DNA of 64,000 nt from Lentisphaera araneosa HTCC2155 (lineage in GTDB: Bacteria; Verrucomicrobiota; Lentisphaeria; Lentisphaerales; Lentisphaeraceae): contig NZ_ABCK01000001.1 of assembly GCF_000170755.1 (NCBI RefSeq), forward strand, positions 372,001-436,000, written 5' to 3'. The first letter of the stretch is position 1; the number at the start of each line of letters is the position of its first letter. Under the pieces are notes generated by a model. That model made no database searches. It saw nothing but the letters and a program-made list of their open reading frames with translations, and was not told where the DNA came from. A program made the translations under genes and the position numbers. This document shows positions 3,646 through 12,519 of the stretch, one piece after another.

Positions 3646-4731
3646 CTAAATTCTATGTCCCATACGATCTCGTTTAGTGTCCAAATAACGCTTATTGTGC
3701 TTAGAAGGTGGAATGATGTGAGAAACCTGTTGTTCCACGGATAAGCCATAACGATTCAAACCGGTGATTTTCGCAGGGTTATTCGTCAATAATTTAAGCG
3801 GTTCAAATTTAAGGTAGTTAATTATTTGAGCACCGATCAAGTAATCCCTTGCATCTTCAGGCATGCCAACCGCTATATTGGCATCTACTGTGTCCATGCC
3901 ATGGAATTGTTGTAAATAATAAGCGTCAAGTTTAGCTTTTAAGCCAATTCCACGACCTTCTTGCCTTAGGTAGACGAGAGCACCATAGCCGTATTCTTTG
4001 ATTTCCTCTAAACCTTTGCTTAACTGATCTCCGCAGTCGCACAGTAAAGAACCAAAAACATGACCAGTTAAACACTCAGATTCGATTCGTACAAGAGGAG
4101 TTTTCTTCTCTTCTTTTTTTTCATCACACACAAAAGCCCAATGGTAGCGAGCATCAATTTCCGAATAGAATGAATAGAGTTTAAAACTACCTTGCTGAAG
4201 ATCGAGTTCAGTCATCCCCGTCATCTCGATTAATCGTGGATTAAAGAAGCGTGATAAACTCACGTCCTCCTCGTTCAACAATAAACTGGAATCAACATTG
4301 ACTTTGTTATAAATCTTTGTGTAGATAAGGCAGTGTTCGTCACCTTCAACATTTGAAGCAAACTCTACGATTCGTCCTTCAACTGATAGATTCTCTAATA
4401 TATCGTGATTTTTTACGACTCGTAAGAGGACTCTATCTTCTGTTTCAGACTGATTATTAAAAACATTAATGAGTCCTTGTGGAGTAAACTCACATGGCAA
4501 GACTGTACAATCTTCAATAATCTCTCGAGACTGACAGATTTCACTCTGGTCACTCACAAGTAAAGATAGTGGACCACCATAAGTCATCAAATCAGCTATT
4601 TTTAATTCTGCACTCTTGTTCAAAAAACAAAAAGCATAAACATCTTCGGACTTTTCTGCTTTGTAATAAAGCAATTCACCACGACGTAAGTGATCTAACT
4701 TTTTTTCGAGTCTATCTTTGAGTTGATTCAT
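3646..4731 (-). CDS. ribA: RibBA-type protein with intact GTP cyclohydrolase II half
   Basis: The C-terminal half is a canonical GTP cyclohydrolase II, which opens the imidazole ring of GTP in the first step of riboflavin synthesis. The zinc-binding Cys are C220, C231 and C233 (SECLTGHVFGSLLCDCG), and the substrate-binding RQEGRGIGL (256-264) and TNNP (316-319) motifs are present. The first 200 residues occupy the place of a 3,4-dihydroxy-2-butanone-4-phosphate (DHBP) synthase domain but lack the acidic DDEDRENEGD-type loop and the GHTEA motif, so I expect no RibB activity. Its ATG overlaps the stop of the upstream paralogue by one base (TAATG), implying translational coupling. The product may work as a heteromer with that paralogue; this is inference. 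Confidence 0.9.
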   Translation of the reverse strand: MNQLKDRLEKKLDHLRRGELLYYKAEKSEDVYAFCFLNKSAELKIADLMTYGGPLSLLVSDQSEICQSREIIEDCTVLPCEFTPQGLINVFNNQSETEDRVLLRVVKNHDILENLSVEGRIVEFASNVEGDEHCLIYTKIYNKVNVDSSLLLNEEDVSLSRFFNPRLIEMTGMTELDLQQGSFKLYSFYSEIDARYHWAFVCDEKKEEKKTPLVRIESECLTGHVFGSLLCDCGDQLSKGLEEIKEYGYGALVYLRQEGRGIGLKAKLDAYYLQQFHGMDTVDANIAVGMPEDARDYLIGAQIINYLKFEPLKLLTNNPAKITGLNRYGLSVEQQVSHIIPPSKHNKRYLDTKRDRMGHRI

Positions 4732-5813
4732 TAATACTTCACCTGTTCAACGATTTCTAAACCGTAGTTATTAATCCCAATGAAGCTGGAAGGGCTATTG
4801 CTCATAAGCCTCATTTTACGCACGCCTAAATCTCTTAAAATTTGAGCACCCAAGCCATAAGCCATACCATCCTTAGGTCGCAAAGTTTTGATTTCACCAT
4901 TTTCCATCCATATATCTGTTGGACGCTTAGAGTCACTAAACAAACCAGAATTGGCTGCTTGTTCAGGAGTATTCCTCAAAAATACAATGATGCCCGAACC
5001 TTCATCAGCTACTTGTTTCATCGCTCTATTTAAAGATGAACCCTCTTCGTTTTTTAAGCGATTAACAATATTACCAATCGACCATTCACTATGAACTCTT
5101 ACTAAAACAGTTTCATCTTCATCAAATTTGTCTTTCCCACAAGTTAAAACTAAATCAATCCCCCTAGCAGGGTCGTAAATAACATTATAAACATGAAGTC
5201 GAAAGTCCCCGTAATCAGTTGGCATATTTACGATATTGAGAGCTTCTACTAAAGGTTCTTTATTTAAACGATATTCAATAACATCGTTTAAATCAGTAAT
5301 CGCTAAATCATTATCAGACGCAAAGTACTTAACTTGCTCTTCACTTAAGCCGTTGGCTTCTTCATCTAAAAGTTGACAAAAAACACTTCCTTCTGAGTGC
5401 TCCGATAAACGTGCTAAATCATATGCAGCTTCCGCAATACCAGGTTTGACCAAAGCAGCACCATGAGAAATCCAGTTAACTTTCAGAAAACCTGGACTTA
5501 TAAAATCACCCGCTTGTACATGCTCGTCTATCATCCTTAAAATACAGTGGCAGCGATCGTTAGCGTTTATACCCGTTTTTAAGGTATTATTCAGTTCAAA
5601 AGTCTGACGACTTAATACTGAGTTCAAAGGAGATGATTTTTTAAGTGCTATTTGAACTTGGCCACGACAATCGTTCATCATAAAAGTTACATAAGCTGAA
5701 GTGCACGCGGCAGCCGCAAAAACAAGGTAATATTTATCATCATCCGCAACGACGACTCGATCCCCTGATTTAAGCTTATCTAAAACTTTTTCTGTATCTC
5801 TGTCTAGACTCAT
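4731..5813 (-). CDS. Degenerate RibBA paralogue, probably non-catalytic
   Basis: A 360-residue protein with the full RibBA layout whose active sites are eroded. In the DHBP synthase half the acidic loop reads VVADDDKYYLVFAA (21-34), GINANDR (81-87) still recalls GIxAxDR, and the GHTEA motif has become PGIAEA (124-129), so the catalytic His is gone while the following AYDLARL remains alignable. In the GTP cyclohydrolase II half the zinc Cys are lost (HSEWSIGNIV at 241-250), RQEGRG has become RNTPEQ, and TNNP has become SNSP. It is first in the operon and coupled to the intact GTP cyclohydrolase II gene. Possible roles are a structural or regulatory subunit, or a neofunctionalised enzyme. No FMN riboswitch was seen upstream. 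Confidence 0.85.
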   Translation of the reverse strand: MSLDRDTEKVLDKLKSGDRVVVADDDKYYLVFAAAACTSAYVTFMMNDCRGQVQIALKKSSPLNSVLSRQTFELNNTLKTGINANDRCHCILRMIDEHVQAGDFISPGFLKVNWISHGAALVKPGIAEAAYDLARLSEHSEGSVFCQLLDEEANGLSEEQVKYFASDNDLAITDLNDVIEYRLNKEPLVEALNIVNMPTDYGDFRLHVYNVIYDPARGIDLVLTCGKDKFDEDETVLVRVHSEWSIGNIVNRLKNEEGSSLNRAMKQVADEGSGIIVFLRNTPEQAANSGLFSDSKRPTDIWMENGEIKTLRPKDGMAYGLGAQILRDLGVRKMRLMSNSPSSFIGINNYGLEIVEQVKY

Positions 5814-5913: not shown

Positions 5914-6423
5914 TTAAGTTATGATCTTTTCTCCAATCATACAGCAGATCTGGGATTCTGGTCCATCGCCATATTCACATATAATAAAATAAGGTGAACT
6001 TGGGCTCGTTTCGCAAAAATAGAGCGCAAAAGCAAAGGGACACTCACCCTCTCCTTCCCAACTATCAATCTTCACTAAACCTCTATATTCGCTTTGTTTT
6101 TTGTAAGTAAAATTTTGCTTTTCAACCTGATTAAAAATACTCTTGGCAAAAGTATCGGATTCAAAGTCACCCTCTTCAAATATCCATGGGCAATCAAGAA
6201 GGTCGGCGCGATTGCCCATCGGCAAATCGTGATGAAGGTGAAAGTGAAGTGCTGGGAAATCATTTTCGTTACTGACTAAAACATAAAGATCTTCATGCTC
6301 ATCTCCCAATTCGGAAAAAATATATTTTCCTGCATAGGTTTTCGCTTTTAGAAACACACTGTGTCCCTCATACTGAAATTCAGTATTGGGTTTGTGATTA
6401 TCTATGAATTGAAAATTAAACAT
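5914..6423 (-). CDS. Hypothetical acidic cytoplasmic protein coupled to hisC
   Basis: I take the ATG at 6423 as the start. It overlaps the end of hisC by eight bases, whereas the longer reading would lie deep inside hisC. The 169-residue product begins MFNFQFID, is acidic, contains a His cluster (ALHFHLHHDLPMG) and a Cys pair near the C-terminus (ICCMIG), and has no signal peptide or membrane segment. I recognise no family. The overlap with hisC suggests translation follows hisC. Confidence 0.6.
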   Translation of the reverse strand: MFNFQFIDNHKPNTEFQYEGHSVFLKAKTYAGKYIFSELGDEHEDLYVLVSNENDFPALHFHLHHDLPMGNRADLLDCPWIFEEGDFESDTFAKSIFNQVEKQNFTYKKQSEYRGLVKIDSWEGEGECPFAFALYFCETSPSSPYFIICEYGDGPESQICCMIGEKIIT

Positions 6424-7525
6424 CGTTAGATTGACGCAATTGCTTAATGGCTGAACCAAAAGCTTGATTTTCTTCGGCTGTACCAAAACTTACGCGAATC
6501 CAATCGTCTAAAAGATAAGGTTGTAAAGGACGCACAATGACACCAAGTGCCATAAGTTTTTGAGCGATATCACCACCATTCCCAGTTTTAATCAAGACAA
6601 AATTTGCGTAGGAAGGTATAAATTCGAGTTCCAATTCATTACAGAGTTGTTCGTAGTACTGTTTCGCTGATCTATAGGCTTCTATTGAGTCTTGCAAAAA
6701 CTCGTCATCATCGAGTGCGGCAACAGCCATATTTTGAGCTGCGAGGTTGGCGTTAAAGGGTTGGCGTGGTTTGTTTAATTCACTCACTAATTCTGCTGAT
6801 GCCATACCGTAACCAATTCTAATTCCAGCTAAACCATAAGCTTTTGAAAATGTTCTTAACACTATGCACGTTTTACCCTTCTTAACGAAAGATAAAGTAT
6901 CAGGCATTTCCCCAAGACATATTTCTGCGTAAGCTTCGTCAAACACAACTAAGACATCATCAGGGACTTGCTCCATGAAGTTATCTATCTCTTCTTGAGA
7001 GATCAAAGTACCCGTCGGATTATTCGGATTACAAACAAAAACGAGCGATGTTTCTGGAGTGATCGCTTTTGCCATAGCATCTAGATCGTGCTGAAGTCCA
7101 GCTTTCACCGGAACTTCAATAAAATCGCCGCCCATCATTGCAGTGAGGATTTTATATATAACAAATGCGTGTGCTGAAGCTACAACGGCTTTGCCTGGTC
7201 CTAAAAAAACTTGTGCTAAAAAAACTAAAATCTCATTGGAGCCTGCACCAAAGATGAATTGATCTGGCTCTAAGTTCATTTTTTTCGAGAGCTTGTCTCT
7301 TAGCTCCCAGGCACCAGCATCAGGATATCGGTGTAAGTTTGAAACACATTCAATGAGAGCTTTCTGCGCTTTGGGTGAAACACCTAAAACACTTTCGTTT
7401 GAAGCTATTTTTACAATCTCATCTGGGTTCAAACCAAAATCTCTCGCCACATCTTCTATGGGTCGACCCGGCTGATAGGGGCGGACTTTGCTCACAGGCT
7501 CGTTGATTTTATCAAGTATTTTCAT
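6416..7525 (-). CDS. hisC: Histidinol-phosphate aminotransferase
   Basis: PLP-dependent class I/II aminotransferase that converts imidazole-acetol phosphate and glutamate to histidinol phosphate. The 369 residues show the Asn of NPNNPTG, the Asp/Tyr of FDEAYAE, the Schiff-base Lys in SKAYGLAGIRIGYG and a C-terminal Arg in DWIRVSFGT. Length is normal for HisC (about 350-370). No other his genes are adjacent, so the gene is isolated from a histidine operon. Some HisC-like enzymes act on aromatic amino acids, so substrate specificity is not certain. Confidence 0.9.
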   Translation of the reverse strand: MKILDKINEPVSKVRPYQPGRPIEDVARDFGLNPDEIVKIASNESVLGVSPKAQKALIECVSNLHRYPDAGAWELRDKLSKKMNLEPDQFIFGAGSNEILVFLAQVFLGPGKAVVASAHAFVIYKILTAMMGGDFIEVPVKAGLQHDLDAMAKAITPETSLVFVCNPNNPTGTLISQEEIDNFMEQVPDDVLVVFDEAYAEICLGEMPDTLSFVKKGKTCIVLRTFSKAYGLAGIRIGYGMASAELVSELNKPRQPFNANLAAQNMAVAALDDDEFLQDSIEAYRSAKQYYEQLCNELELEFIPSYANFVLIKTGNGGDIAQKLMALGVIVRPLQPYLLDDWIRVSFGTAEENQAFGSAIKQLRQSNDV

Positions 7526-7613: not shown

Positions 7614-8564
7614 ATGAAACTTTTCAGAACAGAGATTATTCCTCAACAAACTTGTCCCGAAAGACTCAGTTGGCAAAACTCTTTTATTTCTCTTGGTTCT
7701 TGCTTTGCCGATAAGAGCTCTAAACTCCTTCAAAAATCAGGTGTAAAGGTTTATTCAAACCCTACTGGAGTTCTCTATAATCCACAAAGTATTGCCGATT
7801 TAATCAACAATAGCTTAGAGGGGAAAGTGTGGTCAAAAAATGAATGCGTGATTCATGAAAAACGCGAAGTTTTTCCATTTATCCAAGGAACACAAAGCGA
7901 TCCCATTAAATTTATTAATGACACACAAACCGAACTTTTAGAGCAGATCAATAATGCGGACGTCCTTTTAGTCACTTTCGGGACCGCCTGGGCTTATCGC
8001 TTATTAACAAATAATGAAGTTGTCGCCAACTGCCATAAATTACCCAGTCAGCTATTCAAAAGACAGATGCTTGATCTTGATAGTATTTACAAAACTTGGA
8101 ATCAAACCATTTTAAAGCTTCAAGAAAACAAGCCTGAATTAAAAATCATATTCACAGTTAGTCCCGTAAGACACCTAAGAGATGATTTCAGAGATAATCA
8201 AATCAGTAAATCGACCCTCCATTTAGCCATTGAAAAACTCGTTAAACACAATGAAAATTGTTTCTATTTTCCAGCCTACGAAATTATGATGGATGATCTA
8301 AGGGATTACCGCTTCTATTCTGAGGACATGGCGCACCCAAGCGATGAAGCCACTGCTTATATCTTAGATAAATTTATCAAATCAAGTTTTGACCAAGCCT
8401 CTGAAAAATACTTTTTAGAAGCCCAAAAAATTAGTAGCATGTTTGAACATAAGCTTTTAAATCCTGAGAGTGAAGACAGTCAGAAATTTATACTTTCCCG
8501 TCAAAAGAAAGCTCACGGTTTTCTTAAAAAATACCCTTCGAGTTTACTGGCTATCAATGTCTAA
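7614..8564 (+). CDS. GSCFA domain protein (SGNH-like hydrolase)
   Basis: The N-terminus contains the name-giving GSCFA motif (FISLGSCFADKS, about residues 26-37), followed by NPTGVLYNP and by VTFGTAWAY and SPVRHLRD blocks, all characteristic of the GSCFA family, which is related to SGNH/GDSL hydrolases. The DMAHPSDEA segment near residue 240 supplies a candidate catalytic Asp-His pair. No signal peptide is visible. The stop overlaps the murJ start by eight bases, so the two are probably co-translated, which suggests a cell-envelope substrate. Its actual substrate is unknown. Confidence 0.85.
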   Translation: MKLFRTEIIPQQTCPERLSWQNSFISLGSCFADKSSKLLQKSGVKVYSNPTGVLYNPQSIADLINNSLEGKVWSKNECVIHEKREVFPFIQGTQSDPIKFINDTQTELLEQINNADVLLVTFGTAWAYRLLTNNEVVANCHKLPSQLFKRQMLDLDSIYKTWNQTILKLQENKPELKIIFTVSPVRHLRDDFRDNQISKSTLHLAIEKLVKHNENCFYFPAYEIMMDDLRDYRFYSEDMAHPSDEATAYILDKFIKSSFDQASEKYFLEAQKISSMFEHKLLNPESEDSQKFILSRQKKAHGFLKKYPSSLLAINV

Positions 8565-10755: not shown

Positions 10756-12519
10756 ATGTTTGAACTCACCTTTGAATTCTCGTGCCCAAGTTGTGCCGGT
10801 CACGTGCCCTTTGTTAATAACACTAAAGAAGCTCATTGCTCTTCATGTGGATTAAATATTATTTTTGAAAACCCCGATCAGTTCTTAGATGCACTAGACC
10901 CTGACTCTGATATTGAGATGTTCCAAACTAATTCTGTTAAGCAGGTAGATAAATCAACTGGCAGTTTGCGAGAAACCATCACTGTTTCCTTTTCACGTCA
11001 AGACTTACTTAAACAAGCGATGGCTGCATCTTCTCCACCTCCAGTTAAAAACACTTCTACTAGTAACAACTTAAGCGCCATTAACACTCCTGTTGCTGCT
11101 GCGAAAAAATTAGGTAAACTAAAAGTAGCTCAGCCCGTAAATAATGATTTATTAAATCCAGGCAATAGCAGTTCAACTCCTGCAGCAGGCGCTCCAAACT
11201 TTGGTAGTACGGCTGCGAAAAAGCCGGCTCCCATGGGAGCTCCGAACTTTGCACCTCAAACTACAGCAAAAAACCTTTCCTCTGCAGAGACTATCACTGG
11301 TGCCCCAGCTTTCAATAAAGCTCCAGCTCCAAGCTTCTCTACACCAACTGAAGCTAGTGCTCCAAAATTTAGCACAACTCCACCTTCCGAATTATCTCCG
11401 CTTGAGCAACAACGTGCAGAACTTGAAGAGAAAAAGCGCCATATTGAAGAAGAGAGAGCTCGAGTGGAAGCAGAGTTCGAAAGAATCCAAGCTGAAACTG
11501 AAGCTGCTGAAGAAGAAGCGCGCATGGCTGCTGAAAAAGCTAAAGCCGAAGATGAAGCTCGCATTGCCGCTGAAAAAGCTAGAGCTGAAGAAGAAGCTCG
11601 CATGGCCGCTGAAAAAGCTAGAGCCGAAGATGAAGCACGCATTGCCGCTGAAAAAGCTAGAGCTGAAGAAGAAGCTCGCATGGCCGCTGAAAAAGCTAAA
11701 GCTGAAGAAGAAGCTCGCATGGCCGCTGAAAAAGCTAGAGCTGAAGAAGTTAGTATCGCCGCGGAAAAAGCTGAATCTGAAGATAAGAAAGTAGACGAAA
11801 AAGCTGAAGATAAGAAAGTAGACGAAAAAGCTGAAGATAAGAAGGAAGACGAAAAATCTGAAGATAAGAAAGTAGACGAAAAAGCTGAAGATAAGAAAGT
11901 AGACGAAAAAGCTGAAGATAAGAAAGAAGACGAAAAAGCTGAAGATAAGAAGGAAGACGAAAAATCTGAAGATAAGAAGGAAGACGAAAAAGCTGAAGAT
12001 AAGAAAGAAGACGAAAAAGCTGAAGATAAGAAGGAAGACGAAAAATCTGAAGATAAGAAAGTAGACGAAAAAGCTGAAGATAAGAAAGTAGACGAAAAAT
12101 CTGAAGATAAGAAGGAAGACGAAAAAGCTGAATCTGAAGATAAGAAACTTGCTCCTAAAAAACGTCCTGCAGGATCAAAACCCAGTTCCAAAACTGGTGC
12201 TAAAAAGCGTCCTGCGGGATCAAAACCCACTTCTAAGACTGGCGCTAAAAAACGTCCTGCGGGATCAAAACCTGGCGCGAAAAAAGCTCCTGAAAAACCC
12301 ACTCTAGATAAAGATGGTAACGTGATTGACAAACCAAAACGTAAAAAGCCTCAAACAAAGTCGGACCGTCCCCGTACCCAAACTGGTTTGACCCCAGATA
12401 TGAGAAGAAAACTAGATGAAGAAACTCGAGTAAAATCAAAAGCCATTAAGACTAAAATTGTCATTTTCAACATTCTACTTCTTATCGGAGTTGGCGTTTA
12501 CTTCTTCATGTCTAAATAA
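10756..12519 (+). CDS. Zinc-ribbon, coiled-coil, charged-repeat protein with C-terminal membrane anchor
   Basis: A 587-residue modular protein. Residues 9-36 form a zinc ribbon (CPSC then CSSCG). A Pro/Ala/Ser-rich linker follows (about 95-215). Next is a long predicted coiled coil (about 220-335) with a 13-residue period around EARMAAEKARAEE. Then come about a dozen 9-residue units of the form EDKKVDEKA (about 342-460), three Lys/Pro-rich units around KKRPAGSKP, and a single hydrophobic helix at the extreme C-terminus (IVIFNILLLIGVGVYFFM). The layout is that of a tail-anchored cytoplasmic protein. The N-terminus resembles MJ0042-type zinc ribbons. Function unknown; it could be a scaffold or tether. 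The next gene starts directly after its stop. Confidence 0.75.
   Translation: MFELTFEFSCPSCAGHVPFVNNTKEAHCSSCGLNIIFENPDQFLDALDPDSDIEMFQTNSVKQVDKSTGSLRETITVSFSRQDLLKQAMAASSPPPVKNTSTSNNLSAINTPVAAAKKLGKLKVAQPVNNDLLNPGNSSSTPAAGAPNFGSTAAKKPAPMGAPNFAPQTTAKNLSSAETITGAPAFNKAPAPSFSTPTEASAPKFSTTPPSELSPLEQQRAELEEKKRHIEEERARVEAEFERIQAETEAAEEEARMAAEKAKAEDEARIAAEKARAEEEARMAAEKARAEDEARIAAEKARAEEEARMAAEKAKAEEEARMAAEKARAEEVSIAAEKAESEDKKVDEKAEDKKVDEKAEDKKEDEKSEDKKVDEKAEDKKVDEKAEDKKEDEKAEDKKEDEKSEDKKEDEKAEDKKEDEKAEDKKEDEKSEDKKVDEKAEDKKVDEKSEDKKEDEKAESEDKKLAPKKRPAGSKPSSKTGAKKRPAGSKPTSKTGAKKRPAGSKPGAKKAPEKPTLDKDGNVIDKPKRKKPQTKSDRPRTQTGLTPDMRRKLDEETRVKSKAIKTKIVIFNILLLIGVGVYFFMSK
11514..12147 (+). repeat. In-frame coding repeats (39-bp then 27-bp units)
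   Basis: Two blocks of tandem repeats lie inside the preceding gene. The first has a 39-bp period encoding 13-residue coiled-coil units. The second has a 27-bp period encoding EDKK(V/E)DEK(A/S). Unit-to-unit differences are mainly GTA versus GAA and GCT versus TCT codons. Such repeats are expected to vary in number between strains. Confidence 0.85.

Follow-up and report, generated by a model that had tools for sequence, protein, structure and literature searches.

A doubly degenerate RibBA paralogue as a candidate partner of the only live GTP cyclohydrolase II in Lentisphaera araneosa

The two-in-one vitamin B2 enzyme RibBA, which joins a DHBP synthase half and a GTP cyclohydrolase II (GCHII) half, is replaced in Lentisphaera by two genes, one for a working enzyme and one for a dead look-alike. 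Both lie on the minus strand of the 64,000-nucleotide stretch of the Lentisphaera araneosa HTCC2155 genome analysed here (the window, to which all positions refer unless a locus is named). The upstream gene, XX (5813-4731), encodes a RibBA paralogue degenerate in both halves, and the downstream gene, XA (4731-3646), encodes the live GCHII. Judged from the sequences and their conservation, XX may be a non-catalytic partner subunit of XA in a heteromeric GCHII derived from RibBA, a reading to which we give about an even chance. The features of the pair are as follows.

4731..5813, minus strand: XX, doubly degenerate RibBA paralogue, 360 aa (ORF, Pfam, residue losses, orthologues in 4 further genomes)
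5271..5792, minus strand: XX N-half, residues 8-181, dead DHBP synthase domain (Pfam span, residue table, hhalign)
4740..5231, minus strand: XX C-half, residues 195-358, dead GCHII domain (Pfam span, residue table, identity, pN/pS)
4729..4733, minus strand: TAATG, where the stop of XX overlaps the start of XA (sequence)
3646..4731, minus strand: XA, GCHII with a highly diverged N-half, 361 aa (ORF, PF00925 at 176 bits)
3724..4212, minus strand: XA live GCHII domain, residues 174-336 (Pfam span, catalytic and zinc residues present)
4252..4731, minus strand: XA N-half, residues 1-160 (no Pfam match, weak profile similarity)

Domains and catalytic residues of XX and XA

The XX reading frame has no internal stops, and both of its halves are recognized by Pfam, the N-half as DHBP_synthase (92 bits) and the C-half as GTP_cyclohydro2 (119 bits); the N-half also matches RibB at 100% in hhalign. 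Relative to E. coli RibA (L140), the zinc cysteines 54, 65 and 67 are replaced by W, N and E, R128 by M and K154 by S, the RQEGRG segment reads LRNTPEQ, and the stretch Y105-Q108 is deleted, the alignment of catalytic residues near this deletion being aligner-dependent. Relative to E. coli RibB (L139), the acidic loop with R37, E38 and E40 is deleted and D42, H136, H153 and E174 are Y, F, I and Q in the XX of the window, while H136 is the sole residue of this set kept in the XX of the other genus. Both residue sets of an active RibBA, that of DHBP synthase and that of GCHII (zinc Cys, R128, Y105, K154), are gone from XX. The replacements are fixed across both genera at C54 (W), C65 (N), Q91/E92 (E/Q) and R128 (M), and 37 of the 93 strongly conserved RibBA positions of the GCHII domain are invariant in XX, including R49, H51, S52 and E53. 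The C-half is the most conserved part of XX.

XA, which also has no internal stops, scores 211.7 bits against the PRK00393 subfamily (cut-off 148) and keeps every GCHII residue checked against E. coli RibA, namely the zinc cysteines 54, 65 and 67 and E92, R94, Y105, D126, R128 and K154. Its N-half has no Pfam match and none of the DHBP synthase catalytic residues of E. coli RibB (R37, E38, E40, D42, H136, H153, E174), and profile comparison with DHBP synthase gives only a trace (raw probability 2-9%). The profile score of this N-half beats 200 of 200 column shuffles against the XX N-half, 100 of 100 against the dead domain of a riboflavin synthase fusion encoded elsewhere in the genome, and 196 of 200 against live RibB. 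Because no column shuffle reaches its scores against the dead DHBP synthase halves, the XA N-half is probably a far-diverged DHBP synthase remnant. The initial annotation, made from the letters of the window, had described this half as unrecognisable, which agrees with the Pfam result, the profiles showing a weak similarity above the shuffles; what it had said of the copy at 4731-5813 (loss of the acidic loop, the GHTEA His, the zinc Cys and RQEGRG) is borne out by the residue tables, as are the intact GCHII residues of XA, and the one-base overlap is confirmed by the TAATG. The minus strand of both genes is an addition to that annotation, as is the third dead RibB domain, which lies in the riboflavin synthase fusion.

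Distribution, origin and selection

XX and XA are adjacent and keep their order in five of the six genomes of the family, these five belonging to two genera, and the pair is complete in all five genomes having either gene, so that XX never occurs without XA. Between the two genera XX is 47% identical. The genes overlap by one base, at the junction ...AAGTATTAATGAATCAA... (TAATG), in the genome of the window and in G003, G004 and G005; in G002 the junction is TAAGATG, with no overlap and the start about 1-2 bases past the stop. The same order and the close junctions fit a one-to-one partnership of the two proteins, and XX is under purifying selection and always accompanied by a live XA, as would be expected of a pseudoenzyme subunit. 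The sixth genome, from the third genus (G001, in 370 contigs), lacks XX, XA and any detectable GCHII, although it does have RibB, RibD and the fusion on riboflavin synthase; an assembly gap or a loss may be the cause.

Outside the family, each of the 25 other RibBA proteins of the same class whose complete sequence was read is intact and of canonical type, and the canonical RibBA compared from class and phylum keep the GCHII residue set. A profile of the XX C-half, run on 241 genomes of the phylum, reaches 351-373 bits in four genomes from the two genera and at most 119 bits elsewhere, there against proteins of canonical length. The close relative Lentisphaera marina shows 83% identity, and the system occurs, with this species, in bacteria with named isolates.

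The old pocket of XX holds new invariant residues, among them W244, N255 and M317 as well as those of the stretches LRNTPEQ and KRPTDIW, and the neighbours of XX include histidine-synthesis genes, with hisC upstream in the window and a hisF-like ORF in the other genus (both identified by reading translations). These observations could point to a new catalytic or ligand-binding function of XX outside riboflavin synthesis, the gene being merely co-transcribed with XA. Such a function is distinctly unlikely, since XX always adjoins the sole live GCHII, with no occurrence apart from XA, and no known catalytic motif is recognised in it.

Several other genes near the pair may be recorded here. An ORF between hisC and XX (5914-6486, minus strand) has no Pfam match and is conserved in both relatives of the same genus; it has 170 aa in L. 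marina, and the listed TTG start is probably too far upstream. A GSCFA-family gene lies at 7614-8564 (plus strand), and in the other genus (L009, L010) XX is likewise adjoined by a GSCFA-like ORF, a neighbourhood that is conserved but has no known link. The ORF at 10756-12519 (plus strand) has a zinc-ribbon-like start, followed by a long repetitive region rich in Ala, Glu and Lys and then in Lys, Asp and Glu, and a C-terminal hydrophobic segment.

The XA C-half groups among the RibBA of the class in one tree (82/86 support), and XX stands on a long stem, the long branches blurring its placement. Tandem duplication of RibBA is compatible with these data as the source of XX and XA, because AU tests reject neither a clade of XX and XA (p 0.51) nor the grouping of XX with the RibBA of the class (p 0.48).

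Within the genus, amino-acid identity is 91-94% in the dead C-half of XX (92-94% for the copy in the window), 92-95% in the live C-half of XA and 89-93% in RibB. The pN/pS values, which were computed as proportions with synonymous sites near saturation, are 0.08-0.14 for the XX C-half, 0.04-0.09 for the XA C-half, 0.07-0.17 for RibB, 0.17-0.26 for the XX N-half, 0.20-0.37 for the XA N-half and 0.13-0.31 for the dead domain of the riboflavin synthase fusion. The function of XX appears to be concentrated in its dead GCHII half. Because this half is conserved like the live one, decay of XX is regarded as excluded. Loss of both active sites would be expected of a pseudogene or relaxed relic, an explanation that is extremely improbable, since XX is intact in five genomes of two genera with pN/pS of 0.08-0.26, its replacement residues are fixed, and the gene order and close spacing are conserved. 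The initial annotation had named absence of the pair from relatives, or stops and relaxed selection, as signs of decay; the relatives do not lack the pair, and neither stops nor relaxed selection are found in XX.

Proposed partnership and related systems

In the proposed partnership, XX and XA would descend, probably via tandem duplication, from the bifunctional RibBA used by the rest of the class. XA would have retained the GCHII reaction, XX would have shed both reactions and been retained as the partner subunit of XA, and DHBP synthase activity would have been taken over by a separate RibB, whose gene adjoins that of ribH. Both GCHII and DHBP synthase act as dimers, and the dead GCHII half of XX would most likely replace one protomer of the GCHII dimer, where XX could stabilise, allosterically control or localise XA, the sole live GCHII. 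Residue losses, conservation, close adjacency, a sole live GCHII and a separate RibB are what the sequences show, and the physical heteromer and its regulatory or structural effect are what we infer. A heteromer of one catalytic and one regulatory or structural subunit had already been proposed in the initial annotation, which is thereby supported in part. The stem of XA is long, with 1.6-2.2 changes per column, and its crown short, at about 0.3, in contrast to live RibB, whose stem is 0.27; 15 otherwise conserved positions are fixed to new residues in XA. This is the pattern expected if XA adapted to a new partner, as if it had changed rapidly when the pair formed and had been fixed afterwards.

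Against a partnership, overlap of two genes is insufficient proof of a complex, the genes of G002 do not overlap, and XX could instead act on RibB or elsewhere. Two-sequence AlphaFold runs, with the sequences of the window and of L. marina, gave pLDDT of 30 and 35.

RibBA shares with the pair its two-domain layout and its homology to both halves of XX and to the C-half of XA, and is the probable ancestor; it differs in that XX lacks both catalytic sets and XA a recognisable DHBP synthase half. Prozyme-type pairs, such as those of trypanosome AdoMetDC and deoxyhypusine synthase, in which a catalytic subunit is activated by a dead paralogue, are similar in combining an enzyme with such a paralogue and differ in that they concern other enzymes, activation by XX being putative.

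In proteobacteria (Shewanella, Aeromonas, Bradyrhizobium), RibBX carries a conserved dead GCHII behind RibB, and a live GCHII is encoded elsewhere, according to PMC10012899, citing Brutinel 2013. In XX, too, a RibB domain is followed on its C-terminal side by a dead GCHII domain, the live GCHII being separate. As described there, the RibB half of RibBX is active, whereas the XX N-half has no catalytic residues; XX also shares a gene pair with the live GCHII, and it is no closer to RibBX than to canonical RibBA.

XX could act in trans like the X domain that is fused in RibBX, its dead DHBP synthase half pairing with live RibB and its dead GCHII half controlling RibB. In the same source, the dead GCHII half of RibBX affects the attached RibB by a mechanism described as unknown. 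The residue comparison made here finds GCHII catalytic residues lost also in RibBX-type proteins of Acinetobacter, Novosphingobium and Pseudomonas, and by profile the N-half of XX remains clearly a DHBP synthase domain. Such a role is nevertheless fairly unlikely, since the XX N-half, which would contact RibB, evolves faster than the C-half, the two genera differ at H136, the coupling of XX is with XA and not with ribB, and the XX C-half is nearer to canonical RibBA of class and phylum (87-115 bits) than to RibBX (51-60 bits).

In Arabidopsis, the paralogues RIBA2 and RIBA3 have each lost one of the two activities, and a structural or complex role was proposed for half-dead plant RIBA (Hiltunen et al., PMC3509567). 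RIBA3 resembles XA in that DHBP synthase is lost and GCHII kept; neither a doubly dead isoform nor any pairing or coupling of the genes is described there (PMC3509567). In the open-access literature, no description of a doubly dead RibBA paralogue coupled to a live GCHII was found. Half-dead RibBA are known from RibBX and from plant RIBA2 and RIBA3, and what appears new here is a doubly dead, separate and coupled candidate partner of a live GCHII.

Riboflavin genes elsewhere in the genome

In the genome of the window (6.0 Mb, 97% complete), GCHII is matched exactly twice, by XA and by XX, and by its residues XA is the only live one. DHBP synthase is matched three times, by XX, by a canonical RibB and by a protein of 415 aa on contig C11 (L003:856-2103) in which riboflavin synthase is fused to a dead DHBP synthase domain without its catalytic residues. 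A genuine RibB elsewhere, which had been predicted from the pair, is found separately on contig C31 with all motifs present, and its gene adjoins ribH. The fusion is the only riboflavin synthase detected in the genome, and RibD occurs once. As XA, RibB, RibD and riboflavin synthase are all found, the riboflavin pathway is complete; XA is its sole live GCHII, RibB is present once, and the single riboflavin synthase carries a dead RibB domain.

The fusion is present in six of six genomes of the family and in none of the 14 other genomes of the class that were searched. Matches to it in records of Enterococcus, Bacillus and the like were set aside, as they look like adjacent ribE and ribBA aligned through and not like fusions; in E. 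mundtii, ribE and ribBA are annotated as two genes.

Because riboflavin synthase carries a fused dead RibB domain, a scaffold can also be considered, in which the dead RibB domains of this family would serve the whole pathway as a module for docking. On the live RibB dimer would sit XX, the fusion domain and perhaps the XA N-half, and GCHII, RibB and riboflavin synthase would thus be joined in a single complex, which could channel short-lived intermediates. We consider this quite unlikely. The separate dead paralogue and the dead RibB domain on riboflavin synthase make the role of dead domains testable, whether activation, regulation or scaffolding of the first committed step.

Nine loci scanned with Rfam, which surround the pair, ribB-ribH or the fusion on riboflavin synthase in the genome of the window and its relatives, gave no match to an RNA element, such as an FMN riboswitch. 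In G001, G002 and G003, the catalytic His153 is replaced by Gln in the only canonical RibB detected (GQTEA; L011:1489-2133, L012:1513-2211 and L019:1444-2106), a pattern seen in one of 195 sampled genomes of the phylum (G001, the sample being without G002 and G003). Just upstream of ribB-ribH in Lentisphaera lie two tandem tRNA genes of the same score (L001:1061-1238, minus strand; L018:1137-1315, plus strand).
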